This document shows positions 8,762 to 43,289 of a DNA stretch of 50,286 nucleotides, in pieces. Source of the DNA: a virus; IMG/VR virus record IMGVR_UViG_3300025617_000935, positions 1-50,286 of that record; one strand, written 5' to 3'. The notes under the pieces were generated by a model that worked only from the letters and a program-made list of their open reading frames with translations, searched no databases and had not been told where the DNA came from. The translations under genes were made by a program, and so were the position numbers. Each line of letters opens with the position of its first letter. The stretch's first letter is position 1.

Positions 8762-10717
8762 ATGTATGATATAATATTTATTGGCGAAAAAAATAAACAA
8801 TGGAAATCAGCAAAACACCGATTTCCTCTGTTAAAACATGCAAATACACTAGATGATGCAAAGCGTATTTGTATTACTAAGATGTTTTGGGTAGTGTGGC
8901 CTGACATTACAATAAACGATGATTTTAACTTTGATTACGAGGTAGATGCGTGGAGCACTGATTATGTTCATGTATTTAAAAATAATGAGTTTTATGATGG
9001 CGTTTCGCTAATACCTAAAAATGCAACAATCTCAGATAGAGAGTTACAGCATCGATTTTTTGTTAACAAAAAAGAAGTAGATATACAAGTTAGTAAACCT
9101 CGTCCGTATGATGTATTTAATGTTGATACATACGAAGAATATATAAACGCATTAGAAACTAGCACAACTGATATGTTTTGGATGAGTACCGCTAATATTA
9201 GTATTGATACAGAATTTGTTAACACGTTCTACATATCACATCACGAACAGATTGACAGAAAACAAAACCATGTATTTATACATCAAGTAGATGGCGAAGA
9301 TTTGTACAATGGTTTATTTTTATGCAGCAAACACGTTCCGTTAAGTAAACGAGAAGTAGAATATAGATTTCCTGTAAATCGAAAAGAACACGATATAGTT
9401 GCAAGCGGCCCTTGTAAGTATGATGTATTTGAAATAGATACTTATGAAGATTATTTACAAGCAATTGAAACTAGTACAACTGAGATGTTTTGGATGAGTA
9501 GTCCTAACATTGATGTAGATACTAATGTTGTTAACACGTTCTACATACCACATCATATTCAGATTGACAGAAAACAAAATCATGCATTTATACATCAAGT
9601 AGATGGCGAAGATTTATACAATGGTGTATTTTTGTGCAGTAAACATTTACCTTTATCCAAAAAAGAAGTAGAATATAGATTTCCTGTAAATCGAAAAGAA
9701 CACGATATAGTTGCAAGTGTTGCTGGTAAGTACAATATATTTAATGTTGATACATATGAAGAATATATAAACGCATTAGAAACTAGCACAACTGAGATGT
9801 TTTACATTATTCCTCCAACGGTAACAGTTTGTAAAGATTTTATGTTTGATGATTATTTTGAACATTCTAATACTTTTGATAGACGTATTAATCATGTATT
9901 CCTAAATGGTAAGTTTCATGATGGTATTATACTTTGCAGTAAATATGCTAAAATCAGTAAACGTGAATGGCACTTTAAATTTATTGCTAACAAAAAAGAA
10001 GTTGATATACAAGCAAGTACACCTAACCCTTACGATATTGTTTTTATTAGTTATCAAGAACCAAATGCAGATGAAAACTTTGAAAATTTAAAAACTAGAT
10101 TTCCAGACAGAGTAATACATAGAGTACACGGAGTTAAAGGAATACATCAAGCACATATTGAAGCAGCAAAAGTATGTGATACACCTATGTTTTATATAGT
10201 TGATGGTGATGCCGTAGTTGTTGATGATTTTAATTTTGATTGGCAAGTTCCTGCTTGGCAGTATAATCACGTACATGTATGGCGCAGTAAAAATCCAGTA
10301 AATGGATTGGTTTACGGATATGGTGGCATTAAGTTATTTCCGAGACTCGAAACACTTAATATGGACACTAGCAAACCTGACATGACTACAAGTATTAGTG
10401 ATAAGTTTGTAGCTATGCCAAAGGTTTCAAATATCACAGCATTTAATACAGATCCTTTTAATGCGTGGAAAAGTGCATTTAGAGAATGTGCAAAGTTATC
10501 AAGTAAAGTCATTGATAGGCAAAAGAGTAAGGAAACTAATGAACGTTTAAGGACTTGGTGTATACATATGATACCCGATACTCCGTTTGGAGAAGATGCT
10601 CTGCAAGGAGCAAAGGCAGGAACAGCATATGGTACTAGAAACAAAGGCAATGTTGAAGCATTAAAAAATATTAATGACTTTGATTGGTTAAAGGAAAAAT
10701 TTAATGGAAATACATAA
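8762..10717 (+). CDS. Repeat protein with C-terminal glycosyltransferase-like domain
   Basis: 651 residues from the ATG at 8762; an upstream in-frame TTG (8732) lies inside the promoter and is rejected. The protein has an N-terminal divergent unit (to about residue 114) and three units of about 104 residues, each with YDVF.(V/I)DTYE(E/D)Y, E(T)STT(D/E)MF, a FYI.HH block, a LYNG or HDG block, and a conserved (V/A)NRKEHDI-type end. The last 220 residues are homologous to the protein at 3294-4226 (SYQEPNADENF, RVHGVKG, IVDGDA, YGYGGIK), a GT-like domain. The repeats look like truncated, partly degenerate versions of the same N-terminal lobe. First gene of the island. Role unknown; sugar transfer is an inference. 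Confidence 0.75.
   Translation: MYDIIFIGEKNKQWKSAKHRFPLLKHANTLDDAKRICITKMFWVVWPDITINDDFNFDYEVDAWSTDYVHVFKNNEFYDGVSLIPKNATISDRELQHRFFVNKKEVDIQVSKPRPYDVFNVDTYEEYINALETSTTDMFWMSTANISIDTEFVNTFYISHHEQIDRKQNHVFIHQVDGEDLYNGLFLCSKHVPLSKREVEYRFPVNRKEHDIVASGPCKYDVFEIDTYEDYLQAIETSTTEMFWMSSPNIDVDTNVVNTFYIPHHIQIDRKQNHAFIHQVDGEDLYNGVFLCSKHLPLSKKEVEYRFPVNRKEHDIVASVAGKYNIFNVDTYEEYINALETSTTEMFYIIPPTVTVCKDFMFDDYFEHSNTFDRRINHVFLNGKFHDGIILCSKYAKISKREWHFKFIANKKEVDIQASTPNPYDIVFISYQEPNADENFENLKTRFPDRVIHRVHGVKGIHQAHIEAAKVCDTPMFYIVDGDAVVVDDFNFDWQVPAWQYNHVHVWRSKNPVNGLVYGYGGIKLFPRLETLNMDTSKPDMTTSISDKFVAMPKVSNITAFNTDPFNAWKSAFRECAKLSSKVIDRQKSKETNERLRTWCIHMIPDTPFGEDALQGAKAGTAYGTRNKGNVEALKNINDFDWLKEKFNGNT
9104..10027 (+). 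repeat. Three tandem coding repeats of about 312 bp
   Basis: Units run at about 9104-9415, 9416-9727 and 9728-10027. Parts are identical at the DNA level: 9352-9405 equals 9664-9717 (54 bp, offset 312), and a stretch starting at 9121 recurs nearly unchanged at 9745 (offset 624). The retained DNA identity indicates recent duplication or gene conversion. Confidence 0.85.
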
Positions 10718-11744
10718 GATATTAGATAGATTTGAAATATTAAATCCACAAGATGAATATTTTAAAAACTTACGCCGTGCATATATTGATTCCGATTTGA
10801 GTTCTATATTAGAGTTTACGCCTAATGATGATCTGCGTAGTGCTATTTTAACAAAAAATATTTACAGTATTTTTCGATGTATAGACAATACACGAGCTGT
10901 CGGCGACATTGAAGACTTGCGTAAAGCAGTATTAGAACAAAATATACATAGTTTATTTAGATTGCTTCCGGGCAACGAAGATTTAAGAAAAGCAGTTCTT
11001 GAAGATAATATGCATAGTATTTTTAGATTAGTAGGCAACGAAGATCTAAAAAAAGCTGTAATGGATGACAATATATGGAGTCTATTTAGGCTGTTAAAAT
11101 ATAAAAGCAGTACATATTTTGTTGATGCATTTAAAAACTTTGAAACCAATGATATTCAAATAGACGAAGATTGTTTTAGTAGAGGACAACTTCGGAGTAA
11201 ACTTTGGTTAGTAGATGAACTTAAAAAGTGTAATGTCGAACTAGGTAAAGTATTTCTATGTGCAGGGTGGTATGCTACTCTTGCTACTATGTTATTTGAA
11301 AGTGATATAAAAATAGATTTTATTCGGAGTTTTGATGTTGATCCAGATGTTTGGAAAATAGCCGAAGTATTTAACAAACCTTGGGTTGCCGATAACTGGA
11401 AGTTTAAAGCCAGCACCGAAGACATACACAAAATAAGATTTGACGAACATGTATACGATGTAAACAAAACAGACGGTACAACTCAGCGATTGTGGACAAC
11501 TCCAGATACTGTTATCAACACAAGTTGCGAACATATAAATAACTTTGATAGTTGGTATGACAGCATAGCATACGGAAGTTTAGTAATAATGCAAAGTAAT
11601 AACTATTTTGAAATCAACGAACATGTTAACTGCCACGAAACACTTGAAAGTTTTGCAAAACAAGTACCCCTTGGCGAAGAGTTATACAGTGGCGAACTAG
11701 AACTAGAAAAATATAAAAGGTTTATGCGAATTGGATATAAGTGA
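10704..11744 (+). CDS. Short-repeat protein fused to a class I methyltransferase-like domain
   Basis: 346 residues, overlapping the previous gene by 14 bases. Residues about 22-131 hold five helical repeats of 21-28 residues with the core DLRKAVLE.N(I/M)HS(I/L)FRL. From about residue 150 the sequence looks like a Rossmann methyltransferase: KVFLCAGWYATLATML followed by IRSFDVDPDVW, the usual glycine-strand and acidic-strand positions, then VINTSCEHI. The SAM-binding glycine motif is degenerate (CAGWYA), so activity is uncertain. Target unknown. The repeats may be a scaffold or a modification substrate. Confidence 0.65.
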   Translation: MEIHKILDRFEILNPQDEYFKNLRRAYIDSDLSSILEFTPNDDLRSAILTKNIYSIFRCIDNTRAVGDIEDLRKAVLEQNIHSLFRLLPGNEDLRKAVLEDNMHSIFRLVGNEDLKKAVMDDNIWSLFRLLKYKSSTYFVDAFKNFETNDIQIDEDCFSRGQLRSKLWLVDELKKCNVELGKVFLCAGWYATLATMLFESDIKIDFIRSFDVDPDVWKIAEVFNKPWVADNWKFKASTEDIHKIRFDEHVYDVNKTDGTTQRLWTTPDTVINTSCEHINNFDSWYDSIAYGSLVIMQSNNYFEINEHVNCHETLESFAKQVPLGEELYSGELELEKYKRFMRIGYK

Positions 11745-11955
11745 TTTAAATGTACGTGAGTTACAAAAAGAAAGTGCAAGAGCTCTTAGTACAATACAAG
11801 CAACCAACAATAATATTTGGCAGTTTAATAAGAAAGCACATCATAATAGTCAAAACTGGTACAAGGCTGTTATTGAATGGTATATAGAACAGTATGGCGA
11901 CCTGCCTAGCAAGGTTGGTCCTGGTAAAGATGTAAAGTTGATAATGGATGTATAA
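11731..11955 (+). CDS. Small hypothetical protein, 74 aa
   Basis: Starts at a TTG that overlaps the previous stop and ends 8 bases into the next rSAM gene, so it fills the gap exactly as an operon gene would. The sequence is helical and polar, with a tryptophan/asparagine-rich middle (NNNIWQFNKKAHHNSQNWYKAVIEWYIEQYG) and a C-terminal GDLPSKVGPGKD. No family recognised. Its position immediately ahead of four rSAM genes makes it a possible substrate or carrier peptide, but no leader or core repeat is visible. Confidence 0.55.
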   Translation: MDISDLNVRELQKESARALSTIQATNNNIWQFNKKAHHNSQNWYKAVIEWYIEQYGDLPSKVGPGKDVKLIMDV

Positions 11956-13027
11956 GTACGAAGATATAAAAACAATACATTTAGAAAACACACAAAACTG
12001 TCAAGCAAGTTGTCCGATGTGTGATCGCAATCAAAACGGTGGCGCACTAAATCCTCATATAGATCTAAGCGAACTTACAATAGATGATTGTAAACGTATA
12101 TTTGAGCCTGAGTTTATTGCACAACTGAACACTATGTATATGTGCGGCAACTTAGGTGACCCTATTGTAGCAAGAGATACATTGGAAATATTCAAATACT
12201 TTAGACTGCATAATCCTACAATGTGGTTGAGCATGAATACCAACGCTGGAGCAAAGAGTGTCGAATGGTGGGCAGAGCTTGCAGATGTTATTAATAACAA
12301 AGGCGCAGTTATATTCAGTGTAGACGGGTTGCGTGATACTAATCATCTTTATCGACAAGGCGTAAACTGGGACAATGTAGAGCGTAACATGCGGGCGTTT
12401 ATAGATGCTGGCGGTAGAGCACGTTGGGACTTTTTAATATTTGAACACAACCAACATCAAGTTGAAGAAGCAGAAGCACTTGCAAATGCTTGGGGATGCG
12501 AAAGATTTGTTAAGAAGAAAACTGGCAGATTTGTAACAGCACAAAGTGAAAAGAAAGAATCACATCAAGCAGTAAATCGCAAAGGTGAACAAACTGCCAA
12601 ACTTAAAAAACCTGATGCCAAGTATTTAAACAAGGCACTCGAAACATACGACAAAGTAAAAGAAAAACACGGAAGTATGGATACTTATTATGATCGTGCT
12701 GCTATACATTGTAAAGTAAAAGACGAAGGCAACTTGTTTATTACAGCAGAAGGACTTGCTATGCCGTGTTGTTGGACAGCTGGACGTATGTACAAATGGT
12801 GGCACAAAGATCCTAAGCAAGAACAAGTATGGGATTTTGTTGATGCAGCTGGAGGCAAAGATGCTATTAGTGCTAAAAAACATGGATTACGTGCAGTATT
12901 TGAAACAGGCATTTTTGATAATATACAAAATAGTTGGGATAAGAAAAGTATAGCTGATGGAAAACTAAAAGTATGCAGCATGAAATGCGGAGTTGAGTTT
13001 GATCCATTTGCAGAGCAGTTTAAATGA
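11948..13027 (+). CDS. Radical SAM protein with SPASM-like C-terminus
   Basis: 359 residues. Cluster motif C18-x3-C22-x2-C25 (NCQASCPMCDRNQ); CGNLGDPI takes the place of the usual GGEP. The C-terminal region has IHCKVKDEGNLFITAEG..MPCCW and, at the end, CSMKC, consistent with a SPASM/twitch auxiliary cluster. It is a paralogue of the genes at 14196 and 33188, which share the CGxxGDP/CGNVDEP and PCC(W/F) blocks. SPASM enzymes commonly modify peptides or proteins (established for the family); the substrate here is unknown. It overlaps the small ORF before it by 8 bases and shares ATGA with the next gene. Confidence 0.87.
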   Translation: MYKYEDIKTIHLENTQNCQASCPMCDRNQNGGALNPHIDLSELTIDDCKRIFEPEFIAQLNTMYMCGNLGDPIVARDTLEIFKYFRLHNPTMWLSMNTNAGAKSVEWWAELADVINNKGAVIFSVDGLRDTNHLYRQGVNWDNVERNMRAFIDAGGRARWDFLIFEHNQHQVEEAEALANAWGCERFVKKKTGRFVTAQSEKKESHQAVNRKGEQTAKLKKPDAKYLNKALETYDKVKEKHGSMDTYYDRAAIHCKVKDEGNLFITAEGLAMPCCWTAGRMYKWWHKDPKQEQVWDFVDAAGGKDAISAKKHGLRAVFETGIFDNIQNSWDKKSIADGKLKVCSMKCGVEFDPFAEQFK

Positions 13028-14199
13028 AGCCGTATTGGAAAGACAAAACATTTTGTTATGCACCATTTAACCAAATATATTTTGGAAGAAACGGCGTTGT
13101 AAAACCTTGCTGTGCAGCTACCAATAGTTTTGGCAACTACAACTATAGTTCTATAAAAAATGTGTACAACAGCAAATCTGCAAAGCTCACTCGCCAGGAT
13201 TTTTTACAAGGAAACTATCCTAAAAATAACTGTCAGTCGTGTAGTAGTTTTTACAATCAAACCGGCAGCATACACAATGTACAAATGTTTTCAAATGAAA
13301 ATGCATACAAGGCAATGCATCATAGTAAACAAGTAATGAATGCCGACCTAACAGATCAAAAACCTATTTTTGTTGATTTACTTGTAAGTAATAACTGTAA
13401 TTTTGCATGTTTAGGATGCGAATCCGAACTTAGTAGTACATGGGCAAAAAACTATACTGATATAGAAATACAAAGAGATTTAGATATACGACATACTAAT
13501 GTATCCAGCGAATGGAGTAATAATATAGATCCTATTATTGAATACATTTTAGAACATGCGGATACAATACAATCAATACATTGTAACGGAGGTGAGCCCT
13601 TCATGCAAGAACAATACTACAAACTATTTGATGTATTGATTGATAACAAAATATTTGACATACACATTACATCGCATACAAATGGCAGTGTAAGTACATA
13701 CAAAGGCAAAGATATTGTAAATGATTATCTGTCAAAGTTTACAAATTTTGATATCACATTTAGTCATGATCATTTTGGCAAGCGTGGCACATATATTAGA
13801 TATCCGCTGGTAGAAGAAAAATGGTTAAAAAACTACAACAGAATAAAACAAGTTGCAAAAGTACACGTACAAACAAGTTATAGTTTGTTTAATGCACTAA
13901 CTATAGATACACTAGAAGAATGGTATATTGACAACGGCATTGATATGGACAATTGGATTTTGTTACCATGGCACGGGCCAACAGCATACACTCCGGTTCT
14001 ACTAAATGATCAGCAAATGATGTTTGCAAATTCAAAGTTATACAAACTACAAAAAAATCATCGATTATTTGATTATCTAAATATACGTGAAGATAATCCT
14101 AATCTTCATCGTAACTTTAAAAAAACAATAGAGATGTGGGACCAAAAAAGGAATACTAACTTTGTAGAAACCTTTCCGGAGTTAGCAGAACTAATATGA
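13024..14199 (+). CDS. N-twitch radical SAM protein
   Basis: 391 residues. N-terminal Cys block FCYAPFNQIYFGRNGVVKPCC (C11, C29, C30) followed by C70-x2-C73, then the rSAM motif C125-x3-C129-x2-C132 (NCNFACLGCESELS) and SIHCNGGEPF. This is the layout of the twitch-domain rSAM family: an N-terminal auxiliary cluster ahead of the barrel. The C-terminus contains the family ending FVETFPELAEL, seen also at the ends of the proteins at 4226 and 15257. ATGA overlap on both sides shows tight coupling with the SPASM-type rSAM genes flanking it. Confidence 0.85.
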   Translation: MKPYWKDKTFCYAPFNQIYFGRNGVVKPCCAATNSFGNYNYSSIKNVYNSKSAKLTRQDFLQGNYPKNNCQSCSSFYNQTGSIHNVQMFSNENAYKAMHHSKQVMNADLTDQKPIFVDLLVSNNCNFACLGCESELSSTWAKNYTDIEIQRDLDIRHTNVSSEWSNNIDPIIEYILEHADTIQSIHCNGGEPFMQEQYYKLFDVLIDNKIFDIHITSHTNGSVSTYKGKDIVNDYLSKFTNFDITFSHDHFGKRGTYIRYPLVEEKWLKNYNRIKQVAKVHVQTSYSLFNALTIDTLEEWYIDNGIDMDNWILLPWHGPTAYTPVLLNDQQMMFANSKLYKLQKNHRLFDYLNIREDNPNLHRNFKKTIEMWDQKRNTNFVETFPELAELI

Positions 14200-15260
14200 T
14201 TAAAAAAGTTGAACTAGAAATAACCAGCGATTGTAATGCAGCCTGTCCAGGGTGTGCAAGAACACTCAACAAAGATTTGTTGCAAATAAACAGTTTTACA
14301 TTGCAAGATTTGCAACGTATTTTTCCACCTGCAGATTACAATGAAGTAGAGTTCAAGTTTTGTGGAGTGCTTGGAGATCCTATTACTAATCCTGATTGTT
14401 TGGCCATGACAGAGTACCTTCTTAGTCAAGGTGCTTATTGCGAATATAGTACCAACGGCGGATATAATAACGCAGCGTGGTGGAAACAACTAGGCGAACT
14501 TGCATCAATGTATATTGGAAAGTTGCATATACATTTTTGTATTGACGGACACAAAAACACCAATCACATATATAGAGTAAACACCAAATGGAGTGTTGTA
14601 GAACGCAACATTATAGCATTTTCTGAAGCAGCACCAGAACGTCATGCTACATGGATTTATATTATTTTTGATCACAATGAGCAAGAGTTAGTTACTGCTA
14701 GAGCACATGCCGCAGTATTAGGATTTGATTTTGCTACACGTACTGGAATGCGTAATAGTTATCACGATTGGGTTGCAAAAATAAAAACTAAAAAACAAAC
14801 GGAACAAAAAGTTATTACAACTACAGGCAGTAAAGAGCATAGTAAAAAAGATATAATGAAAGACTTGGATAAGTTTATTACTGAGTATAAATCTCATAAA
14901 GCTGATGCCGAAAAAACTAAAGAAGTAGTTGACAGTATTATATGTAAGTATATCCATGAAGGTGAAATATTTATAGCAAGTGATCAGACTATGTGGCCAT
15001 GTTGTTTTTTATGGGATAGTGCATTTAAAAACAGAGAAAGTATAATGCAGAAACTAAACAGATTTGAACCTGGTTGGAATAGTTTACTGTTGCACACCAA
15101 AGAAGAAGTAATGCAACACCCTTGGTATAAAGATCTATTAACAGCAAGTTGGCAACCAAGTCATCCATTACATCTTAGTAGATGTATTAGAACATGTGCA
15201 AAAAATAAAGCATATCACAATGAAATAAACTACGCAGATAAAGGTATAAGTACAGTATGA
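14196..15260 (+). CDS. Radical SAM protein with SPASM-like C-terminus (paralogue)
   Basis: 354 residues. Cluster motif C13-x3-C17-x2-C20 (DCNAACPGCARTL), CGVLGDPIT in the GGEP position, and a C-terminal block ICKYIHEGEIFIAS...WPCCFLWD ending with CIRTC. Same plan as 11948-13027 and 33188-34264. A lysine-rich linker of about 50 residues (KTKKQTEQ...SKKDIMKDLDK) sits between barrel and C-terminal cluster, also seen in the other two. Probably peptide- or protein-directed by analogy with SPASM enzymes. ATGA overlap with neighbours. Confidence 0.87.
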   Translation: MIKKVELEITSDCNAACPGCARTLNKDLLQINSFTLQDLQRIFPPADYNEVEFKFCGVLGDPITNPDCLAMTEYLLSQGAYCEYSTNGGYNNAAWWKQLGELASMYIGKLHIHFCIDGHKNTNHIYRVNTKWSVVERNIIAFSEAAPERHATWIYIIFDHNEQELVTARAHAAVLGFDFATRTGMRNSYHDWVAKIKTKKQTEQKVITTTGSKEHSKKDIMKDLDKFITEYKSHKADAEKTKEVVDSIICKYIHEGEIFIASDQTMWPCCFLWDSAFKNRESIMQKLNRFEPGWNSLLLHTKEEVMQHPWYKDLLTASWQPSHPLHLSRCIRTCAKNKAYHNEINYADKGISTV

Positions 15261-16654
15261 GCAAAGTAAGTGACACATTTTGTATTCTTCCATGGGTACA
15301 CCTAAGTACAAGGCCAGATGGCAGTATGAGAGTATGCTGTACAGCAAACGCTAGTAGTGTAGGTGCTACTAATGATAAAGAGCATGGCGGCCAAGTTGGC
15401 ATTCTTAAAACAGATGACGGCAAGCCAAACAACCTAAATGTAACAGACTTTCAAACTGCTTGGAACAGCAAGTATATGAAAAATGTACGCAAGCAGATGA
15501 TGAATGGCGAAAAACCTCCAAGTTGTTTAAAGTGCTACAGAGAAGAAGCAGCAGGACATAATAGCAAACGTATGTGGGAAACAGCGTATTGGAGTCAGCG
15601 TACTGATGTTGACAAACTGATTGCTGATACTACAGAAGATGGAGAAGTACCGCCTAACTTGGCATACATTGATTTACGCTTTGGTACCAAGTGTCAGCTT
15701 GCTTGTGTTATGTGTAGTCCGCATGATAGTAGTGGTTGGATTAAAGATTACAAATCAATTTTTCCTGAAGTAAAAAATGAAAGTCTCAAAGAGACAATGC
15801 AATGGCAAGACAAAGGCAGCACCAACGGTAGTAGCTACAACTGGCACAAACAAAATCCTGTATTTTGGCAACAGTTCTATGATCAAATGGGTAGTATGCA
15901 ACAGATTTATTTTGCCGGCGGCGAAAGTCTTATCATTGAAGAACACTACGAAATATTAGAACATGCTATTAAGATGGGTTATGCTAAAGACTTAGAACTA
16001 AGGTACAACTCAAATGGCGTAGAATGGCGAGACGATTTGTTTGATTTGTGGAAAGAATTTAAACTAGTACGTTTTCATTACAGTATAGACAGCATTAAAG
16101 AAATGAATGACTATATTCGTTATCCAAGTAAATGGAAACGTCAAGAAGAAGTATTTCATATACTTGACAACGAAACAAGTAACAATGTAGAAATCACTGT
16201 AGCATGTGCAGTACAAGCATTAAACATATATTACATACCAGATTTTATTCGTTGGAAACTAGAACAAAAATTTAAAAAGATTAATATGTGGCCATTTGGC
16301 GCCGGCGGCGTAAACTATCACTTTGTATACCATCCACCGCACCTAAATGTTAAAGTGCTGCCAGAATGGTTTAAAGCAGAAGTACGTAAAAAGTATGAAG
16401 AGTTTTATCCATGGTGGGAAGAAAACTGGGAACTAGGTATTCCTAGTTGGCACAAAGGTAAAGTAACCAAAGCAATGTTTGACGCCGCTCCTTATGGTAT
16501 TAAACGTCTTAACGGTATGCTACAGTTTATGGAATCAGAGGACTGGAGCAGACGCTTGCCGGAAATGCAAGAGTTTATAAACCTATGCGACAAACAACGT
16601 GGTATTACATTTGCTGAAACATTTCCTGAGATGAAAGATATTTTTGATGGATGA
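15257..16654 (+). CDS. N-twitch radical SAM protein
   Basis: 465 residues. N-terminal block FCILPWVHLSTRPDGSMRVCC (C9, C27, C28), then C90-x2-C93 (SCLKCYREEAAGHNSKR), the rSAM motif C146-x3-C150-x2-C153 (KCQLACVMCSPHDSS) and FAGGESLI replacing GGEP. Matches the twitch-domain rSAM family in length and order. Followed by a QueC-like gene that overlaps its stop by 8 bases; the rSAM/QueC-like alternation repeats in the next three genes. Substrate unknown. Confidence 0.87.
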   Translation: MSKVSDTFCILPWVHLSTRPDGSMRVCCTANASSVGATNDKEHGGQVGILKTDDGKPNNLNVTDFQTAWNSKYMKNVRKQMMNGEKPPSCLKCYREEAAGHNSKRMWETAYWSQRTDVDKLIADTTEDGEVPPNLAYIDLRFGTKCQLACVMCSPHDSSGWIKDYKSIFPEVKNESLKETMQWQDKGSTNGSSYNWHKQNPVFWQQFYDQMGSMQQIYFAGGESLIIEEHYEILEHAIKMGYAKDLELRYNSNGVEWRDDLFDLWKEFKLVRFHYSIDSIKEMNDYIRYPSKWKRQEEVFHILDNETSNNVEITVACAVQALNIYYIPDFIRWKLEQKFKKINMWPFGAGGVNYHFVYHPPHLNVKVLPEWFKAEVRKKYEEFYPWWEENWELGIPSWHKGKVTKAMFDAAPYGIKRLNGMLQFMESEDWSRRLPEMQEFINLCDKQRGITFAETFPEMKDIFDG

Positions 16655-22489: not shown

Positions 22490-22504
22490 TATTATAACCA
22501 AATA

Positions 22505-29648: not shown

Positions 29649-29649
29649 T

Positions 29650-34264: not shown

Positions 34265-34266
34265 GG

Positions 34267-34294
34267 TTGACCTTTACTATAGAAATGTTATTAT
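34267..34294 (+). promoter_or_regulatory. Internal sigma70-type promoter, apparently leaderless
   Basis: TTGACC (34267-34272), 16 bases, TATTAT (34289-34294), then the ATG at 34301, again seven bases past the -10. No Shine-Dalgarno sequence lies between. Same geometry as the promoter at 8727-8755, and both are followed by ACNGT directly before ATG. Confidence 0.6.
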
Positions 34295-34300
34295 TACAGT

Positions 34301-35413: not shown

Positions 35414-36660
35414 TGAGGAAAAATGATTTTGAAATTGTTAATCCTGATTTTTTATACAAAATGGACGAGCATATAACGTTTTGTTTTGAAAACGAGCCGC
35501 GCGGCTTCTTTTGGCATCCTGTATATAAACATTGGATTATTTTCTCAATGGATAAACTTAAAGAAGCATCCAAACGGAATGAAGAGTTTAGTCTTGCAAC
35601 AACTTCGCCTGCGCCTTTTGATCCAACACCATTGGGCGGCGTTTGGAGAGCAGGATATGCTTTGACACTTCGTGAAGGACCGCATCATCACCTTGCTAAA
35701 AAACACAGTTTAGATTGGATCAAACGTCGAGCAGGTGATTTTACAAAAATCTTTACAGATAACTTATATAAAGATCTTGACTCGATTAAAAAGGGCGTTC
35801 CATTTAAAGCATACGATGTCATAGGCAAAACAGTAACAGATACTCAAATTCAATCGATTGAGTTTCCATGGGATATTTTGGATGTTACTGAAGATTATGT
35901 AAAAGATGGGTTTCACGAATGGATGCGTCCTGGCAATGTATTCTCAAACTTCAATCCAGACTTTGATTACGACAAACCTGTAGCAGAAACTACTAAATTT
36001 TATAGTATGTTCTCTGGTATAGTCAACAAAGCAATAGAATATTATCATAACGATGGTAAAGATTGCGATACTATGATTAATATGACTAAAAACCTTAGCG
36101 ATAAACAATCAGAATACAACGATAATCCTAAACTAATGGCGTATATGTTTATTCAATCTTTGTGGACAGTGGTTATTCCTACATTTTCATTAAGTTTATA
36201 TCAAAATATTTTAATGAACTTTTGTAAATATCCAGATATTGTTAAACGTATAAAAGAAGATAGATCTTTAGTTTCTGCATTTGCTAGAGAAAGTTTACGA
36301 TTAGCACCATTAAAAGGCGGCATACGAGATATTGTCGATGAAACAATCTTTCATGGTTATAAGTTTGATATTGGCGGCCGCATTTTGTTATATACATATG
36401 GTGCTAATCGAGATCCAAAATATTATAAAGATCCGTTAGTATTTAGACTCGAAAGAGATAACGAACCGTTACCGGTAACACTCGCATATGGGCCGCATCA
36501 TTGTACAGGTGATTTTCTTGTTAAGCATTTTTTAGAAATTATTACAACTGCATTATTAGATAGATTTGACACGTTTGAGATTACAAAACAGCCTGAACTA
36601 TTGCCTGCTATGTTTGGAAGTACAACAGTTTACAAGGATTTAGAAATGGTGTTTTCGTGA
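35413..36660 (+). CDS. Cytochrome P450
   Basis: 415 residues, normal bacterial P450 length. The K-helix ExxR is E293-SL-R296 (ARESLRL), followed by GANRDPKYYKDPLVF (the NRDP meander) and the heme loop AYGPHHCTGDF with C364 as thiolate ligand. The first two positions of the loop (FG in the usual FGxGxHxCxG) are LA. The I-helix lacks an obvious AGxDT, having IQSLWTVVIPTFSL. No membrane anchor, so soluble. Needs a ferredoxin/reductase from the host; none is encoded here. Would oxidise a substrate in the island's pathway. P450 genes are rare in phages. Confidence 0.9.
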   Translation: MRKNDFEIVNPDFLYKMDEHITFCFENEPRGFFWHPVYKHWIIFSMDKLKEASKRNEEFSLATTSPAPFDPTPLGGVWRAGYALTLREGPHHHLAKKHSLDWIKRRAGDFTKIFTDNLYKDLDSIKKGVPFKAYDVIGKTVTDTQIQSIEFPWDILDVTEDYVKDGFHEWMRPGNVFSNFNPDFDYDKPVAETTKFYSMFSGIVNKAIEYYHNDGKDCDTMINMTKNLSDKQSEYNDNPKLMAYMFIQSLWTVVIPTFSLSLYQNILMNFCKYPDIVKRIKEDRSLVSAFARESLRLAPLKGGIRDIVDETIFHGYKFDIGGRILLYTYGANRDPKYYKDPLVFRLERDNEPLPVTLAYGPHHCTGDFLVKHFLEIITTALLDRFDTFEITKQPELLPAMFGSTTVYKDLEMVFS

Positions 36661-37172
36661 TAGAAACTAGTATTATATCTAAACCTACTTTGCAGTTATT
36701 AGAATTCATTGACGAATGTGATAGGATAGGTTACAATAATAACAATAGTCTAGAGTCTATGAAATTTAATAACACATTGCGTATAGGTGGAAACTGGTTT
36801 GCTACTTTTAACAATAATAAAATAGTTGGCATAAGCGGAGTACATCCATTTCTTAATGGCGTACGAGCATTATTTAGAGGATGTCAACTTTATTCAATTC
36901 CTGGTGGATTAAGTAAAAATCATATGAATTGTTGGATGTTTCGCTATCATTTGCCTATAGTAATTAATATGTATAGCAATAAACCGATATACATAACAAC
37001 TAATACTAACACTGATTATAGCGGCAAAATGTTAAAGTTAAACAAACTTTATCACATACTTTCAAAAAAACAAATAGTAGAGCATCTAGGTTGTCAAAAG
37101 GTTTTTGACCACGATCAAAATATATGGAAACTAAATATAAAAGAATATTGTAAGATAAACCCGGAGATTTAA
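36657..37172 (+). CDS. GNAT-like acyltransferase, paralogue of 5579-6175
   Basis: 171 residues from a GTG overlapping the P450 stop (GTGA). WFATFNNNKIVGISGVHPF resembles GNAT central strands, and IYITTNTN...KMLKLNKLYHILSK matches QYISTNTN...SKVHRIWSKIM of the minus-strand copy. A minimal AMP-forming ligase lies two genes away here, and directly beside the other copy. Acyl transfer is inferred from fold and context. Confidence 0.58.
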   Translation: MIETSIISKPTLQLLEFIDECDRIGYNNNNSLESMKFNNTLRIGGNWFATFNNNKIVGISGVHPFLNGVRALFRGCQLYSIPGGLSKNHMNCWMFRYHLPIVINMYSNKPIYITTNTNTDYSGKMLKLNKLYHILSKKQIVEHLGCQKVFDHDQNIWKLNIKEYCKINPEI

Positions 37173-38360
37173 ATGAAGATTGCTATATTAGGTGCTGGAA
37201 GTGCAGGGGTATTAACTGCAGGTTGTTTACTTAAAGATTTTAAAAATCGCGGAATTGAGTTAGAGCTTACCCATGTATATGATCCAAGTAAGCCTATCCT
37301 CGGAGTAGGTGAGAGTACAACGTCAGAAGTAACCTTTGCTATTGGTCAAGCATTTAACTTTATATTTGCAACCGAGGCAGATGAACTTAAAAGTACTACA
37401 AAGTACGGCACACATTACATTGATTGGAGAGAGAATGATATTATTTTTCCTTTTCAATCAGGATATCATGCTATCCATTTTGATGCAAAAGATTTTGTTA
37501 AGATGGGTATGGAACGCTTAAAAAATTTATATAATAGTTATACTGTATTACACGGTAACGTAGAAAGAGTATCGCAGAGCTTTACTGATTATACCAACGA
37601 ATCAAAGGGCGGCGAACTAAGCGTAAACGGAAAACTGCACATATTTGATTATATTATTGATTGTAGAGGCAGACCAACAGATTTCACTGATTACGAAGAA
37701 TGTAACCTTGTTCTAAACTCTGCTTTGGTATATGATAATCAGACACCGTCTGATTTTGGGTTCACACGTCATGTTGCTCATAAGTATGGATGGATGTTTG
37801 TTATTCCCCTACAGCACAGAACATCGCATGGCTTTCTTTATAACAATAACTTTTGTACACGCGAAGAAGCTGAACAAGAACTTATTCGTATCACAGATGC
37901 AACAGATGCAGATACAAAAAACTTCCGTACATTTGATTTAAAACCATATTATTGTAATAAGACAGTTAACCAACGTTTATTAAAAAATGGAAACTGTGCG
38001 GTGTTTTTTGAACCAATGAGTGCAAATTCGTTGTATATGGCTGTTAAAAACTGTCAAATACTTTCTGATTATATGCGAGGCGAAATTAACGGCCATCGAG
38101 CAAACGAACTATGTATTTTAAACTATCGTGCAGTAGAAGATTTAATTAACTTAATCTATCATGGAGGCTCTATATACAAAAACGAGTTTTGGGATTGGGC
38201 AAAGAAAACATCTGCTGAACGTATAGAAAAGACCGATGTATTGAAACGATATGTAAAAGGGCAAAACGATGAAATGTTTAAAACCATTACTGAACGGTTT
38301 ATGGGTCATCACGTTTTAAAATACGTTGACCAAGAGTTTGGATTTCATTACTTTGATTGA
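37173..38360 (+). CDS. Flavin-dependent tryptophan-halogenase-like monooxygenase
   Basis: 395 residues; GGAG before the ATG. ILGAGSAGVLTAG (FAD Rossmann loop, G7-x-G9-x2-G12) and ILGVGESTTSE (44-49 region) are hallmarks of the tryptophan halogenase family, as is FFEPMSANSLYMA near residue 275. The WxWxIP halogenase signature is altered: W207-M-F209-V-I-P212, with Phe in place of the second Trp. KYGTHYIDW lies where the catalytic-lysine segment is expected; whether that lysine is kept needs an alignment. Shorter than usual (about 500). Could be a halogenase, a hydroxylase or an unusual FAD oxidase. Confidence 0.8.
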   Translation: MKIAILGAGSAGVLTAGCLLKDFKNRGIELELTHVYDPSKPILGVGESTTSEVTFAIGQAFNFIFATEADELKSTTKYGTHYIDWRENDIIFPFQSGYHAIHFDAKDFVKMGMERLKNLYNSYTVLHGNVERVSQSFTDYTNESKGGELSVNGKLHIFDYIIDCRGRPTDFTDYEECNLVLNSALVYDNQTPSDFGFTRHVAHKYGWMFVIPLQHRTSHGFLYNNNFCTREEAEQELIRITDATDADTKNFRTFDLKPYYCNKTVNQRLLKNGNCAVFFEPMSANSLYMAVKNCQILSDYMRGEINGHRANELCILNYRAVEDLINLIYHGGSIYKNEFWDWAKKTSAERIEKTDVLKRYVKGQNDEMFKTITERFMGHHVLKYVDQEFGFHYFD

Positions 38361-39093
38361 TAAATTAGAACATATTATTGTAAATGGCATAACTATTAAA
38401 ACATCAGGTACATCTGGAGTTCCAAAAGAGATATATCAGCCCCCAAGTAAAATAGTAGCAGATGCCAAATGTGCAATCCAAGTTCAAGATATTAATGTGC
38501 ATAGTTCTATATACACTTGTTTAAGTTTAGAGCGTGCCGGAGGATTGTTTGCCCAATCTATTCCAGGATTGATAGCTGGTGCAACAGTTTACTTTGATAC
38601 ATTTAACCTATATAAATACATTAAAGTAGCAGATAAGTATACTCATACACATTTAACGCCAAAGCAAGCAAAGGGTGTTATGTTAACAAAGGGATTTAAA
38701 ACACTTGACTTAACCGGTAAAACATTTTTAGTAGGATCTGAGCCCGTCACGTATGATATTATTGAAGGCTTTATCAATCGAGGTGCTCGAGTAATATGTA
38801 TATGGGGAATGACCGAAGTTGGAGTAAATGCTATTATGCATATATTTAATAACATAGAAGAAGTATATGCACTTAAAGATATTACGCCTGCTAACTCTAC
38901 TGTACTTGGTAATATATTTAACTGTGATTATAAGATAGACAAAGAAAATAGATTATTAATAAAAGGTGATATATCTGTATATGGGGACAACTGGTTTAAT
39001 ACACAAGACCAAGTAATAGAACAAGACGGAATATTATTCTACATTGGAAGAAATGGCACTCCAGTAGACTTTAATAATCCAAGGAAAGGATAA
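38326..39093 (+). CDS. Minimal ANL-type AMP-forming ligase
   Basis: 255 residues. The track of coding frame begins at a TTG (38326) inside the halogenase-like gene; a later TTG at 38353 is also possible and no ribosome site decides. Signatures: IKTSGTSGVPKEI (phosphate loop), CIWGMTEVGVN (adenine-binding region) and NTQDQVIEQDGILFYIGRNG. The C-terminal lid domain is wholly absent, so the second half reaction seen in full ligases is unlikely; adenylate formation is the plausible step. The shortest member in the window, less than half the usual length. Confidence 0.76.
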   Translation: MTKSLDFITLIDKLEHIIVNGITIKTSGTSGVPKEIYQPPSKIVADAKCAIQVQDINVHSSIYTCLSLERAGGLFAQSIPGLIAGATVYFDTFNLYKYIKVADKYTHTHLTPKQAKGVMLTKGFKTLDLTGKTFLVGSEPVTYDIIEGFINRGARVICIWGMTEVGVNAIMHIFNNIEEVYALKDITPANSTVLGNIFNCDYKIDKENRLLIKGDISVYGDNWFNTQDQVIEQDGILFYIGRNGTPVDFNNPRKG

Positions 39094-39094
39094 T

Positions 39095-41170
39095 ATGAAA
39101 ACATATGATGTTATAATCATGACCGAAGGCAGCGACCCAGTATTTAATGTAGCACGAGGTATCGGCGGCTATAAAATCGCATCTGCGTTACGTAACGAAG
39201 GATATAGTGTTTTTGTATTAAATAACTTTTCACATTGGATTAAAAATGGAATGATTAAACAAGTTCTTGACAAGTTAATCGGTGATAACACACTATGGGT
39301 TGGATTTAGTTCTTCGTTGTTTATGAGAAAGAATAACGAAGTATATACCAAACGGCATACACGAGATACTAACAAAAAAAATATTCTTTGGCGCTGGCCG
39401 ACTGAAGACGAAGATATTAGAAAAATGACTGATTATATTCGATATACCAAAGGTGTAAAAACTGTATATGGCGGTAGTATGTCGTATCATCGAGCTGAAG
39501 AAGTTAAAAATGAAATAGATTATTATGTAGTTGGAATGGGCGAACATACTGCATTAAACATTACCGATCACTTAAAAAATAGCGCCGATCTTAACTATAA
39601 TGCCGATCTCGGAACTACTCCTTATATATTTGATTATGATCAAAAAGGAGCGTTATTTGATTTTAGAAACACAAAAGTAAACTATATTCTAGAGGACTTT
39701 TGGAGTGCGGAAGAAGCTATGGGCATCGAATTTGGCCGAGGATGCATTTTTAAATGTAAGTTTTGTGCTTATCCATTGATAGGAAAGAAAAAAGGCGATC
39801 AGTCTTTTCTAAGAGATAAAGAATGTATCAAACACGAATTAAAACAAAACTATGAGTTATACGGCACTACAAAGTATATAATTATTGATGATACATTTAA
39901 TGAGCAGACTGTTAAGCTACAAGCTATTGCAGATGCCATAGACGAAATTAATCTACCAGAACAACTACAGTTTTCAGCATTTATACGTATTGATCTTGTA
40001 GCAAAATGGCCAGAGCAACTAAAACTACTTAAAAAAATTAATGTGTGTTCTTGGTTTCTTGGTGTTGAATCGTTGAATTATGAGTCAGCCAAGACTATTG
40101 GAAAAGGCTGTCCTAGCGCAACAATTTTTGAAACAATCAGAAAATCTCGAGAAGTATTTAATGGATCGCTAAGTGTCTACGGTAGCTTTATTGCTGGATT
40201 GCCCTATGATAGTAAAGAAACAATGGATATTTGGACTAAAGATGTTATTAAGAACAAAGATCTTTTTGATGCTTTTTCTTTTAGTCCACTAGAGCTTGGC
40301 ACAGCGTCCGAGCTTTCTAAAAACCCAGAACGTTTCGGCTATACAGTATATAAAGATAATGAAAAGCAAAACAAATGGCGTACTAAAGATTGGGATAGTG
40401 ACGAGGCTGTTGAATACGTAAAAGTACTTACAAAGGATTTTATCGATGATATTAAAGTTTCTACCTTCTTTTTAATGTTTTATCAGTGTCTTGGATATTC
40501 ATTTGAAGAACTTAGAAAAATGACATTTACTGAATTATTTACAAGTGCTGAGCCTCGTCGTAAAGCACGGCATTTTTTAGAAAAATCTTATTATTCAAAA
40601 GTTGAAAACCTCTTAGAAATAAAGAAGCCCGAACCTAGTATAAGATATATGAAAAACTTACCAGTTAACCAAGATTTAAAATCTAAACTAAGAAAAGAGT
40701 TTTATGAAAACAAGTCACTTGCTAAAGTATTTACTGCTTCCAACGAGCACGAAACAAAAAGCATTGATCATCTTCGTGTGATTAGACAAGACGATATGTC
40801 TAATTGTAACGTAGCAAATAGTATAGCAAATCGTGTTAGTTCTATTATTGGTTGCAAGGCTGTTCCTAGGTATTATATACAAGACGGAGATAGTTACCTA
40901 TCTCCTCATCGTGATCATGGAACAATAACTGCTTTAAATATAATACTAGATGGCGACGGTCCTATAACATGGAATAGTCCTATATCCTGGAACGAAGATA
41001 TTGATGTCTATTATGAAGGTGCTTTGCTTAATGTACAAGAAGAACACAGTGTACAAACATATAACGAAAGAGTACTTTTTAAACTAGCAATTTTTGATAA
41101 AAGTTATGACGAAGTATTGGAGTTAATCAACGGCAAAGAAGGAGATTTATTTGGCATTGATCTATTATGA
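39095..41170 (+). CDS. B12-binding-type radical SAM protein fused to a 2OG-oxygenase-like domain
   Basis: 691 residues; AAGGA before ATG. Residues 1-190 resemble a cobalamin-binding-type domain (ARGIGGYKIASALRNEGYSVFVLNN, ...VKTVYGGSMSY, YYVVGMGEHTALNI), though the DxHxxG cobalamin histidine is not seen. The rSAM motif C217-x3-C221-x2-C224 (GCIFKCKFCAY) follows. From about 560 on the sequence shows HxD (SPHRDHGT, near 608), a histidine (EEHSVQTYNERVLFKLAIF, near 650) and arginine, as in 2OG/Fe(II) oxygenases. The fusion implies two successive C-H functionalisations on one substrate (inference). Confidence 0.82.
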   Translation: MKTYDVIIMTEGSDPVFNVARGIGGYKIASALRNEGYSVFVLNNFSHWIKNGMIKQVLDKLIGDNTLWVGFSSSLFMRKNNEVYTKRHTRDTNKKNILWRWPTEDEDIRKMTDYIRYTKGVKTVYGGSMSYHRAEEVKNEIDYYVVGMGEHTALNITDHLKNSADLNYNADLGTTPYIFDYDQKGALFDFRNTKVNYILEDFWSAEEAMGIEFGRGCIFKCKFCAYPLIGKKKGDQSFLRDKECIKHELKQNYELYGTTKYIIIDDTFNEQTVKLQAIADAIDEINLPEQLQFSAFIRIDLVAKWPEQLKLLKKINVCSWFLGVESLNYESAKTIGKGCPSATIFETIRKSREVFNGSLSVYGSFIAGLPYDSKETMDIWTKDVIKNKDLFDAFSFSPLELGTASELSKNPERFGYTVYKDNEKQNKWRTKDWDSDEAVEYVKVLTKDFIDDIKVSTFFLMFYQCLGYSFEELRKMTFTELFTSAEPRRKARHFLEKSYYSKVENLLEIKKPEPSIRYMKNLPVNQDLKSKLRKEFYENKSLAKVFTASNEHETKSIDHLRVIRQDDMSNCNVANSIANRVSSIIGCKAVPRYYIQDGDSYLSPHRDHGTITALNIILDGDGPITWNSPISWNEDIDVYYEGALLNVQEEHSVQTYNERVLFKLAIFDKSYDEVLELINGKEGDLFGIDLL

Positions 41171-41729
41171 AAAAGTAAACTTACCTCAGTTTAACGGCTT
41201 AATACAAGAACTTGAATATCTAAATTTACAATGGTTTAAACCTTCTAATATATATAGTTCTCACCAGATATGTTTAAATGCCGCTCCAGGATATACAAAC
41301 GACATTAGTTTTGGTGCAGGATATTTTGCAGATAAAGGCAAATCAGATTTCTTTGTTAGACTTACTCCTAACGGTGATGTTCGTATACCAATGAAGCCAA
41401 GCTCAGTATATGATTGGGAGTTATGCGATGTATTTAAAGATACGTTGTTTGAAGATGTTTATAAGGCTATAGAAACAAAATACAATGTTGGTCGTATACG
41501 ACTTTTAAAGTCAACGCCTTTCACATGTATGAACTGGCACATAGATCCAATTCCAAGATTACATTATCCAATACAAACCGACGAGGGTTGTCTTATGATT
41601 ATCGAAGATGAAGTATACCATTTACCAAAAGATCAATGGACATTTACTCATACAGATAAAGGAAAACACACTGCATTAAATGCTAGTAATATTAACCGTA
41701 TTCATCTAGTGGTAGATATATTACCATGA
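41151..41729 (+). CDS. 2-oxoglutarate oxygenase (aspartyl/asparaginyl hydroxylase-like)
   Basis: 192 residues from TTG 41151, with AAGGAG at the right distance inside the previous gene. H130-I-D132 (MNWHIDPIPRLHYPI), then H173 (GKHTALNASNINRIHLVV) and R183, fit an aspartyl/asparaginyl beta-hydroxylase-like core. The ending HTALNAS..(N/D).R(I/V)HLV is shared with 48650-49210, so the island and the structural region hold paralogues. Hydroxylation of a protein side chain or small molecule is possible. ATGA overlap with the next gene. Confidence 0.75.
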   Translation: MALIYYEKVNLPQFNGLIQELEYLNLQWFKPSNIYSSHQICLNAAPGYTNDISFGAGYFADKGKSDFFVRLTPNGDVRIPMKPSSVYDWELCDVFKDTLFEDVYKAIETKYNVGRIRLLKSTPFTCMNWHIDPIPRLHYPIQTDEGCLMIIEDEVYHLPKDQWTFTHTDKGKHTALNASNINRIHLVVDILP

Positions 41730-41914
41730 TAGAACTATTTTTAATTCAGTATTTACTTGTAACTATACTTGCTATTATTGTAACTGAAAAGTTTGTACCA
41801 ACTGAGCAGCCGTGGCAATGGAAACAAGCTCATAAAATAGAAAGATATTTAGCTTGTTGCATTCCGGTATATAGAGAAATTATTATGTTAGCTATTTTAT
41901 GGAATAAAAAATGA
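41726..41914 (+). CDS. Small membrane protein, 62 aa
   Basis: Residues 4-22 (LFLIQYLLVTILAIIVTEK) form a single membrane helix; a second hydrophobic stretch with cysteines (YLACCIPVYREIIMLAILW) lies near the C-terminus. ATGA overlaps on both sides place it firmly in the operon. No family recognised. It may anchor the pathway to the membrane or act as a holin-like small protein, but nothing proves either. Confidence 0.6.
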   Translation: MIELFLIQYLLVTILAIIVTEKFVPTEQPWQWKQAHKIERYLACCIPVYREIIMLAILWNKK

Positions 41915-42588
41915 TATTTAAAAAACTTGATGTATTTAATATATTTAATCAGTTTGTAACTGACTACAGAAACAAAAAAGTACTAGACTTTGGAGGGAAC
42001 CGTGGTAATCTAATTAGTTATAGCAACGGCAAAATCCTTGAAAAAAACTATACTTGTGTAGATATAAATAAGGAATCTCTTGATGTTCTTTTAAATGAAC
42101 ATCCTGCTGCAAATGTAGTTCATTGGAACAGATATCATTCTATATATAATCCTACTGGTAGTAAAACTGAAGCATTTCCAAATATTGGAGAATTTAATAT
42201 TGCGTTTGCCAACAGTGTGTTTACTCATCATAACTTAGAAGAACTACTTTATTATGTAGAAAACCTATGTACTATATCTACATATGTGTATTTTACATAT
42301 ATTGATCCATCAAATCAAAAAATATTTGATATACTTCGTAATACGCATAAAACAATAGATGTATCAGAAGAACAAATGAAAAAAATACGCAGCAATAAAG
42401 TTTCTTATATTACAAACAAAGATAATATGTTGTGGTCGGTATTTGATACTAACGAACTTAAAAAGTCTATAAAAAACTATTCTAGATTTGAGTTATCTAT
42501 AGAAGACGGATTAACAGACGGATTTAACTGGATGAAAATTAAAGTGTTAGACAGAAATATTATTATACCATCTTTAATAGGATATTAA
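41911..42588 (+). CDS. Class I SAM-dependent methyltransferase-like protein
   Basis: 225 residues. NKKVLDFGGNRGNLISY is a clear SAM loop, YTCVDINKESLDVLL the acidic strand, FNIAFANSVFTHHNLEELL the motif III-like region. Target unknown; different in sequence from the tandem pair at 28480/29124. Two bases separate it from the last island gene, a QueC-like protein. Confidence 0.78.
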   Translation: MIFKKLDVFNIFNQFVTDYRNKKVLDFGGNRGNLISYSNGKILEKNYTCVDINKESLDVLLNEHPAANVVHWNRYHSIYNPTGSKTEAFPNIGEFNIAFANSVFTHHNLEELLYYVENLCTISTYVYFTYIDPSNQKIFDILRNTHKTIDVSEEQMKKIRSNKVSYITNKDNMLWSVFDTNELKKSIKNYSRFELSIEDGLTDGFNWMKIKVLDRNIIIPSLIGY

Positions 42589-42590
42589 CG

Positions 42591-43289
42591 ATGATTTTTA
42601 CAAGAGATGATTTTCCAGATGGGCCACCTGAGGAAGTTATATTAATGTTATCAGGCGGATTAGATTCTGCAATATTATTTTATTTAATTTGCAAACACTT
42701 TCCGAAAACTTATATTGTTCCGTTTTCGGGCGATGACGCATGTAATCCTGCAGATATACTTTGCGCTCAAGATATTTTAAAATTTATGCGTAAAAGATTT
42801 CCTAATACTAACATAGGAAAGCACGAAATATATAGTTTCAACACTAATGATACTTTTTGGTTTGAAAAAGCCAAAGATCAATTTAATAACTTTACGTTTT
42901 CGTCAATAGAAGGGTTATCAAAACATTTTCAGTTAGTGAAAGGTCTTAAGAAAGTCAGAGAACAAACTAATATATTAACATTTGTTAATGCAGTAACAGC
43001 CAATCCACCAAATGAAGAAATGAATCTGCACGGGTTAGAACACGGCGCGGATCAATATCGAAATGATTATATTAAGTCTCGACTGTCCAAAACTGTATAT
43101 AGAAATATTCTGTATAAACCATGGATAAACACAAACAAGCGTGATATAGCACAGATTTATAAGCAAGAAAACTTAATAGAATCTTTATATAAGTTAACAA
43201 AATCGTGTGTAGATTCTACTGCTACTTATGAAAATAGAGAATGTGGATCATGTTGGTGGTGTCGAGAAAAAAAATGGGGATTTGAATAA
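42591..43289 (+). CDS. QueC-like PP-loop ATPase, last gene of the island
   Basis: 232 residues. Loop SGGLDS at 21-26 (EEVILMLSGGLDSAILFYLIC), identical to the canonical QueC-type SGGxDS; end SCVDSTATYENRECGSCWWCREKKWGF with the full zinc-type arrangement. VNAVTANPP replaces the YSGLTLNPP block of the others. The most canonical of the five. No terminator follows; the next unit has its own late box. Confidence 0.8.
   Translation: MIFTRDDFPDGPPEEVILMLSGGLDSAILFYLICKHFPKTYIVPFSGDDACNPADILCAQDILKFMRKRFPNTNIGKHEIYSFNTNDTFWFEKAKDQFNNFTFSSIEGLSKHFQLVKGLKKVREQTNILTFVNAVTANPPNEEMNLHGLEHGADQYRNDYIKSRLSKTVYRNILYKPWINTNKRDIAQIYKQENLIESLYKLTKSCVDSTATYENRECGSCWWCREKKWGFE

Follow-up and report, generated by a model that had tools for sequence, protein, structure and literature searches.

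The 50,286-nt window analysed here, a linear viral fragment (IMG/VR record IMGVR_UViG_3300025617_000935, positions 1 to 50,286), carries a 35-44 kb island of tightly coupled enzyme genes in the tail-fibre slot of a marine phage of the T4 superfamily. The island consists of two modules that differ in distribution. Module A (8.7-35.4 kb, g11-g37) has a core formed by the GT-A-fold proteins g06/g11, g12, the phage-specific protein g13 and the radical S-adenosylmethionine (SAM) enzymes g14, g17 and g37, while module B (35.4-43.8 kb, g38-g48) is a cassette for oxidative tailoring that moves separately and is present in about 20 contigs of several lineages. The island probably serves a long biosynthetic pathway of the phages; the best single guess at its function, held at somewhat less than even confidence, is that the pathway builds or decorates a surface glycoconjugate. 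A more specific and more tentative proposal is a modular assembly line, with a fixed core of glycosyltransferase (GT), g13 and three radical-SAM enzymes and with swappable cassettes, that makes new hypermodified surface glycoconjugates (radical-edited, amidated, oxidised and perhaps halogenated); phages would have acquired it from Bdellovibrionota-like bacteria and diversified it while competing among themselves.

Extent and organization of the island

Between 8732 and 43843 lie 38 consecutive open reading frames (ORFs), all on the plus strand. Neighbouring ORFs overlap at 29 of the 37 junctions, and overlap or are spaced by at most 2 nt at 34; the largest gap is 58 nt, and the coding fraction is 99.6%. 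A first-pass annotation of this DNA had described 36 coupled one-strand genes at 8762-43289, and 36 of the 38 ORFs do end by 43289. Its start also agrees with the homologs, most of which align with g11 only from residue 11, so that the true start of g11 is probably the ATG at 8762 rather than 8732. The island it delimited is real, but it is wider and is not a single unit: it also takes in two DUF6356 genes up to 43843, and glycosyltransferase-like and radical-SAM genes (g01-g07) extend the slot leftwards as far as the window edge, the left plus-strand array being broken by a minus-strand tail-fibre patch (g08-g10).

The enzyme classes named in that annotation proved correct by Pfam, NCBIfam and motif searches. 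Fourteen radical-SAM genes lie within the island, each with a CxxxCxxC motif, and g07 (4226-5599, plus strand; CNFRCGYC; 98% in contig G016) is a fifteenth. There are five QueC-like PP-loop proteins, each with an SGG(A/L)(D/E)S loop, together with a cytochrome P450, a Trp-halogenase-family protein, an AMP-binding enzyme, an Asp/Arg hydroxylase and three methyltransferases. Pfam family scores of island genes are often under the cut-off, yet the catalytic motifs are intact. Other labels were read from the sequence, namely g22 (short-chain-dehydrogenase-like), g27 (SGNH-like), g28 (pyridoxal-phosphate, or PLP, type), g34 (nitroreductase-like) and g08 and g39 (GNAT-like). No RNA families or tRNAs were found in the window.

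Contig integrity, selection and exchange

Contigs G016 and G017 span 1-35.4 kb with g01-g37 collinear, mostly at 82-100% (g08 is at 56% in G016), and hold other genes at the position of module B. Contig G013 spans g37-g53 at 70-98%, and the succession of g37 and the P450 gene is seen independently in G018, L062 and L063. The linear, fragmentary state of the window and the relatives of its genes on bacterial chromosomes could be taken as signs of an assembly chimera or bacterial contamination. However, the left edge, the A/B join and the right edge are each crossed by these other contigs, with none of the breaks at 8.7 or 43.3 kb that the first-pass annotation had considered, and bacterial g17 relatives are only 53-64% identical and come without most of the genes. 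A chimera was therefore rejected as far as contigs can show, and an artefact of either kind is extremely improbable.

In comparisons with G016, G013 and G018, nearly all genes for which dS is usable have a ratio of nonsynonymous to synonymous divergence (dN/dS) of about 0.005-0.39; dS is near zero in g26, g27, g32 and g36, where single-gene ratios are meaningless. Most island genes are under purifying selection, at dN/dS values of 0.005-0.3, and constitute a used and exchanged set rather than debris. Independent contigs preserve both the gene order and the sequence under such selection, so the island is not a product of chance. Furthermore, dS changes from block to block along the island, a pattern pointing to recombination. 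Against G016, dS is about 0.02-0.3 over most of g23-g36 and about 0.3-1.1 to the left of this block, and the low values suggest a recent exchange of the sub-block between phages.

Module A and its core

Searches with g11 and g17 returned 108 and 185 relatives, respectively, and the best 80 of the 185 g17 relatives, on viral contigs, are 85-99% identical. The module A core recurs, with g11-g37 as an ordered array, in more than 100 viral contigs. Between g14 and g37, genes for radical-SAM, PP-loop, PLP, nitroreductase, short-chain dehydrogenase, SGNH and methyltransferase proteins come and go among phages. Two radical-SAM proteins, g17 and g25, score 420 and 359 bits with NF033640, exceeding its curated cut-off of 170 bits, and have the CxxxCxxC motif.

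The first gene, g11 (8762-10717), encodes a glycosyltransferase-like protein with a GT-A-fold C-terminal domain after repeated degenerate copies. An AlphaFold2 (AF2) model of a homolog has a mean confidence score (pLDDT) of 91.3, and its best PDB matches by Foldseek are nearly all glycosyltransferases. Relatives of g11 range from about 430 to 1080 amino acids (8732-10717 in the window; L097, L196, L198 and L208), because the degenerate GT-like repeat differs in copy number. The protein g06 is a relative of the C-terminal GT-A domain of g11, and in G021 the relatives of g06, g11 and g12 are combined in one 1058-amino-acid ORF.

Downstream, g12 (10704-11744) is methyltransferase-like and begins with tandem helical repeats of about 22 amino acids (LRKAVLExNIHSLFRLL), the copy number of which differs among phages. 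In those contexts, phage and bacterial, that were inspected in detail, a GT adjoins the g12 relative. The 74-amino-acid protein g13 (11731-11955) is highly conserved over its whole length, forms a three-helix domain and has a fixed position close to g14 (11948-13027). Its fold has no PDB match and its sequence no pattern of leader and variable core, and its candidacy as a carrier protein or as the precursor of a ribosomally synthesized and post-translationally modified peptide (RiPP) was rejected on these grounds. The core is completed by g17 (15257-16654), of the twitch-domain type, and by g37, the last gene of the module.

Module B, a mobile oxidative cassette

Module B opens with the P450 gene g38 (35413-36660), which scores 43.8 bits in Pfam (cut-off 22.8), has the ExxR motif and keeps the heme-Cys loop in 15 of 15 sequences. 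The I-helix AGx(D/E)T is absent, and all 15 have an invariant WTVVIPT instead (VVIPT at the motif); exceptions to AGx(D/E)T are known in the P450 superfamily. After g39 (GNAT-like, 36657-37172) comes the Trp-halogenase-family flavoenzyme g40 (37173-38360). The FAD-binding GxGxxG and the aligned catalytic Lys of g40 are conserved in 16 of 16 sequences, in all of which WMFVIP and EPMSANS replace WxWxIP and EPLES, the latter with the Trp-halogenase Glu. The only NCBIfam match is a weak one (24 of 240 bits) to QhpG, a peptide-acting monooxygenase. Judging from the altered motifs, g40 may be a monooxygenase, and "halogenase" a family label rather than a function.

The next genes encode g41 (38326-39093), a short AMP-forming ligase without the N- and C-terminal parts, and g42 (39095-41170), a B12-type radical-SAM enzyme with a C-terminal AspH-like domain that is a separate gene in some other phages. 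The CxxxCxxC of g42 is kept in 16 of 16 sequences, the cobalamin-binding domain scores 23.5 bits in Pfam (cut-off 32.1), and the best NCBIfam models are of B12-radical-SAM types, below their cut-offs. The genes g43 (Asp/Arg-hydroxylase-like), g44 (62 amino acids), g45 (methyltransferase) and g46 (QueC-like PP-loop) occupy 41151-43289, and the operon ends with g47 and g48 (43348-43843), small DUF6356 proteins that are conserved mid-protein.

A search with g40 gave 15 viral contigs, all with a B12-type radical-SAM gene, and the P450 search gave 20. Apart from small gains and losses, these contigs share the order P450, GNAT-like, flavoenzyme, AMP-ligase, B12 radical SAM, AspH, methyltransferase and DUF6356 pair; in G018, L062 and L063, flavoenzyme and DUF6356 are missing together. 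Most contigs with module B lack other window genes, and their backbones differ, with DnaB and topoisomerase II on G001 and G006 and baseplate genes on G005 and G009. Neighbours in other lineages include GT8- and GT34-like genes and, in G012, a UDP-sugar dehydrogenase. The P450 is 76-83% identical among contigs (94% in G013), while relatives of g49, at the right border of the window, are only 25-30% identical outside G013 and G018; module B is therefore a cassette that moves between phages. No relatives of the P450 and the B12 radical-SAM enzyme were found among 50,697 phage records, and scanning 84,980 prokaryote genomes for the P450 gave no match, though with peptide patterns so narrow that absence is unproven.

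At the module B position, G016 holds three other B12-type radical-SAM genes with AspH-like and nitroreductase-like genes (75507-85388, oriented coordinates). The pair of GNAT-like and short AMP-ligase genes recurs in the tail-fibre patch (5579-8717 in the window; L241 in G016), to which some phages add a second halogenase-family gene (498 amino acids), a DUF6356 gene or both. DUF6356 was considered as an obligate partner of the halogenase-like enzyme; the association is strict within module B and is broken both ways by the tail-fibre patches, and this candidate was rejected.

Genomic slot, phage lineage and host

The slot is flanked by tail-fibre and baseplate genes, with fibre-like g10 and g50 and a baseplate-wedge relative, g49; in G016, long tail genes lie on its opposite side. 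G016, G018 and G021 share the backbone on either side of the slot (about 30-83%) and differ in island content. The 182-kb contig G021 shares the slot backbone with G016 on the left and G018 on the right, and carries some of the module A genes at the same position. VrlC and the neck gene gp14, the bounds of the host recognition cluster discussed below, were not located in G016, G018 or G021, and the window is too short for such a search. The terminase of G021 is of the T4 superfamily (31% to Pelagibacter phage Mosig) and is closest to those of PA5oct-like giant phages of Pseudomonas (55%). The phage thus belongs to a marine T4-superfamily lineage, in line with the earlier description of a T4-like phage with structural flanks.

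It is probably not a cyanophage. An initial assignment to cyanophages from a nucleotide match of about 80% was withdrawn, since this match is confined to one 317-amino-acid stretch of g49 and psbA is absent from the 12 contigs tested, six of them 137-257 kb in length. The only host lead is the presence of two terminases of the lineage in one 1.2-Mb gammaproteobacterial metagenome-assembled genome (MAG). Bdellovibrionota were rejected as hosts, with a lineage terminase in 0 of 291 genomes. An A-type Fe-S carrier is not a regular companion, occurring in only two of the 12 contigs tested. Phage-like module A arrays with g13 have been binned in L264 (Rickettsiales MAG MED657) and L260 (a Neisseriaceae MAG); these are likely phage contigs.

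A chromosomal counterpart in Bdellovibrionota

A genome scan with an alignment of the twitch radical-SAM protein found relatives of 53-64% identity on Bdellovibrionota contigs of 936, 328 and 103 kb, as well as phage-like contigs in other MAGs. In Bdellovibrionota, relatives of g14, g17 and g37 are adjacent and are accompanied by g06/g11-g12, QueC-like and AspH-like genes; the loci also hold relatives of g24, g25 and g28, and in L263 there are also GT2 glycosyltransferases, a FAD enzyme resembling UDP-galactopyranose mutase, QueC and AspH. A g17 match at E < 1e-100 is present in 10 of 192 Bdellovibrionota genomes. In a tree rooted on the window paralogs, the g17 sequences of viruses group in one clade (0.985) that lies within the bacterial ones. 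The protein g13 was found with phage versions only; a search of the 192 genomes for it was empty, in a set without a positive control. The phage core probably derived from a surface-polysaccharide locus of the Bdellovibrionota type. Part of module A thus has relatives on bacterial chromosomes, though not in a known pathway. In L262, L263 and L266 there are 22-28 NF033640 matches per genome, a good part of them above the cut-off, which amounts to an expansion of this family.

Comparison with described systems

The closest published setting is the host recognition cluster (HRC) of pelagimyophages and cyanomyophages, in which glycosyltransferases and radical-SAM cassettes occupy the tail-fibre slot and the glycosyltransferases are read as host-surface modifiers (PMC7029224). 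Like the HRC, the window has a hypervariable island with such genes among tail-fibre and baseplate genes. The published islands, however, average 34-45 kb including the fibres, and their radical-SAM genes are mentioned only as added cassettes (PMC7029224). In contrast, the window carries 14-15 radical-SAM genes whose order is mostly retained in more than 100 contigs, has a P450/halogenase-like cassette, and belongs to a lineage with a terminase closest to PA5oct-like phages. TARA_ERS488813_N000010, a T4-like environmental marine genome of about 183 kb, is also rich in radical SAM, with 12 such genes read as Fe-S metabolism; the accessible part of its account has no gene order, glycosyltransferase link, g13, module B or bacterial counterpart (PMC5332604). 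The nearest cultured phage with a related island, Pelagibacter phage Mosig EXVC030M (MT647606), holds a smaller one between the tail fibres and VrlC, with three MoaA-like radical-SAM, AspH-like, nitroreductase, aminotransferase and methylase genes. Its identity is only about 25% over half of g14, and its tail-fibre/VrlC stretch has no annotated P450 or halogenase.

The Bdellovibrionota cluster (L262, L263, L265, L266 and others) shares adjacent g14/g17/g37, g06/g11, g12 and QueC-like and AspH-like genes with the window, but it has mixed orientation and added GT2 enzymes, and neither g13 nor module B was found in it. VirX1 and other cyanophage flavin-dependent halogenases (PMC8407142) belong to the same Pfam family as g40, with the catalytic Lys aligned. 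In the cyanophage isolates compared, however, the halogenase is an isolated gene at 27-34% identity to g40, whereas g40 is locked in a P450/AMP-ligase/B12-radical-SAM cassette and has an altered WxWxIP and no Trp-halogenase Glu. O-antigen and capsule loci share GT-like genes with the window, in which no export gene was recognised. The claim that no phage pathway of such content had been described thus needs narrowing, as the HRC, the 12-radical-SAM genome and the Mosig island precede it. Within the open-access literature searched, the long conserved array with a g13/triad core, the mobile P450/flavoenzyme cassette and the Bdellovibrionota counterpart were not found described.

Functional interpretation

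The first-pass annotation left the class of the product open. A surface glycoconjugate is favoured because of the GT fold of the g11 homolog, the adjacency of GT and g12, the tail-fibre slot, the published reading of the HRC (PMC7029224) and the GT-rich bacterial counterpart. During infection, the glycosyltransferases would build or extend a glycoconjugate, and the radical-SAM enzymes would alter its sugars, or groups attached to them, at unactivated carbons. The QueC-like PP-loop enzymes might amidate or thiolate carboxylates via an acyl-adenylate, and module B might contribute groups that are oxidised, acylated or halogenated. Such a product would reshape the host envelope and so keep out competing phages; a less likely target of decoration is the tail fibres of the phage itself.

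Several points weigh against a glycoconjugate. The window has no recognised gene for a flippase, polymerase, O-antigen ligase or lipid carrier, and a complete route of export would therefore depend on the host. Most characterised SPASM/twitch radical-SAM enzymes act on peptides, not sugars. The Foldseek TM-scores of g11 are low (0.2-0.3), because g11 is a degenerate multi-repeat protein, and several functional labels of the window genes derive from weak profile matches and are provisional.

Module B raises the prospect of a diffusible secondary metabolite (a toxin, signal or siderophore-like compound) directed at the host or at rival microbes, as its mix of P450, halogenase-like, AMP-ligase, GNAT, B12-radical-SAM and methyltransferase genes is a hallmark of such clusters, about 20 contigs from several phage lineages keep its order as a unit, and the short AMP-ligase and GNAT-like pair recurs beside tail fibres. 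This is nonetheless unlikely: there is no recognised scaffold builder (nonribosomal peptide synthetase, polyketide synthase or terpene synthase), carrier protein or exporter, the time in which a lytic phage could benefit from a diffusible compound is short, module A is accompanied by glycosyltransferases, and g40 lacks the Trp-halogenase Glu and a strict WxWxIP. The peptide preference of twitch/SPASM enzymes would fit a RiPP-like system in which radical-SAM and PP-loop enzymes modify a phage protein, g13 or a small scaffold-type DUF6356 protein. The weak match of g40 to peptide-acting QhpG, the two small DUF6356 genes ending the operon, and the small size, high conservation and fixed position of g13 close to g14 agree with it. 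It comes next in order and is likewise doubtful, as g13 is conserved throughout, with a three-helix fold and no leader/variable-core pattern, and is not found beside the bacterial g14/g17/g37, which makes it unlikely to be their required substrate.

Similarly improbable, and ranked behind these two, is a role of the island in decorating the virion itself, by glycosylation or another modification of its tail fibre or capsid. Tail-fibre genes lie inside (g10) and beside (g50) the island, and the minus-strand unit of g10 includes acyl-ligase and GNAT-like genes, but this adjacency is also expected of a tail-fibre slot, and the core is present on bacterial chromosomes without those phage proteins. 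Synthesis of a modified DNA or tRNA base has the five QueC-like PP-loop proteins in its favour, and 7-deazaguanine DNA is known in phages. It is very unlikely, however, given that no FolE, QueD, canonical QueE, DpdA transglycosylase or nucleotide kinase was seen among the island genes searched and that there are far too many other enzymes. The evidence thus leans towards a glycoconjugate and away from a base or a classical RiPP.

If the glycoconjugate pathway is real, the metabolic pathways of lytic phages include some of the longest that viruses encode, these phages have radical-SAM counts unusual for a virus, and surface chemistry at the tail-fibre slot would explain radical-SAM-rich marine phage genomes filed under Fe-S metabolism. 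The islands offer dozens of radical-SAM, PP-loop, P450 and flavin enzymes that are still uncharacterised and have conserved partners, and link phages to Bdellovibrio-like chromosomal loci, where the core is genetically testable.

Other genes of the window

The left arm of the slot includes g03-g06 (1086-4226, plus strand; collinear at 84-94% in G016), among them the nucleotide-sugar-transferase-like g03 and g04 (DxD) and, within the same interval, g06. The tail-fibre patch (5579-8717, minus strand) comprises g08 (GNAT-like), g09 (short AMP-ligase) and g10 (tail-fibre-like). Within module A, g15 and g16 (13024-15260) are radical-SAM genes, g18-g21 (16644-20813) alternate between PP-loop (g18, g20) and radical SAM (g19, g21), and g22 (20797-21351) is putatively a short-chain dehydrogenase from a weak profile match. 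The radical-SAM genes g23-g26 (21317-26138), of which g24 and g25 are of the twitch type, precede g27 (SGNH-hydrolase-like), g28 (PLP-enzyme-like) and g29 (QueC-like PP-loop) at 26129-28483, the methyltransferases g30 and g31 with the AspH-like, 2-oxoglutarate-oxygenase-like g32 (28435-30327), and g33 (radical SAM), g34 (nitroreductase-like), g35 (PP-loop) and g36 and g37 (radical SAM) at 30311-35413. The right border, g49-g53 (43896-50137, minus strand), contains baseplate wedge/protease-like and tail-fibre genes.

A larger cluster than that of the window is present in the 257-kb viral contig G022 (IMGVR 3300023175_000005), which has 19 radical-SAM matches, mostly within about 47 kb (about 140-187 kb).

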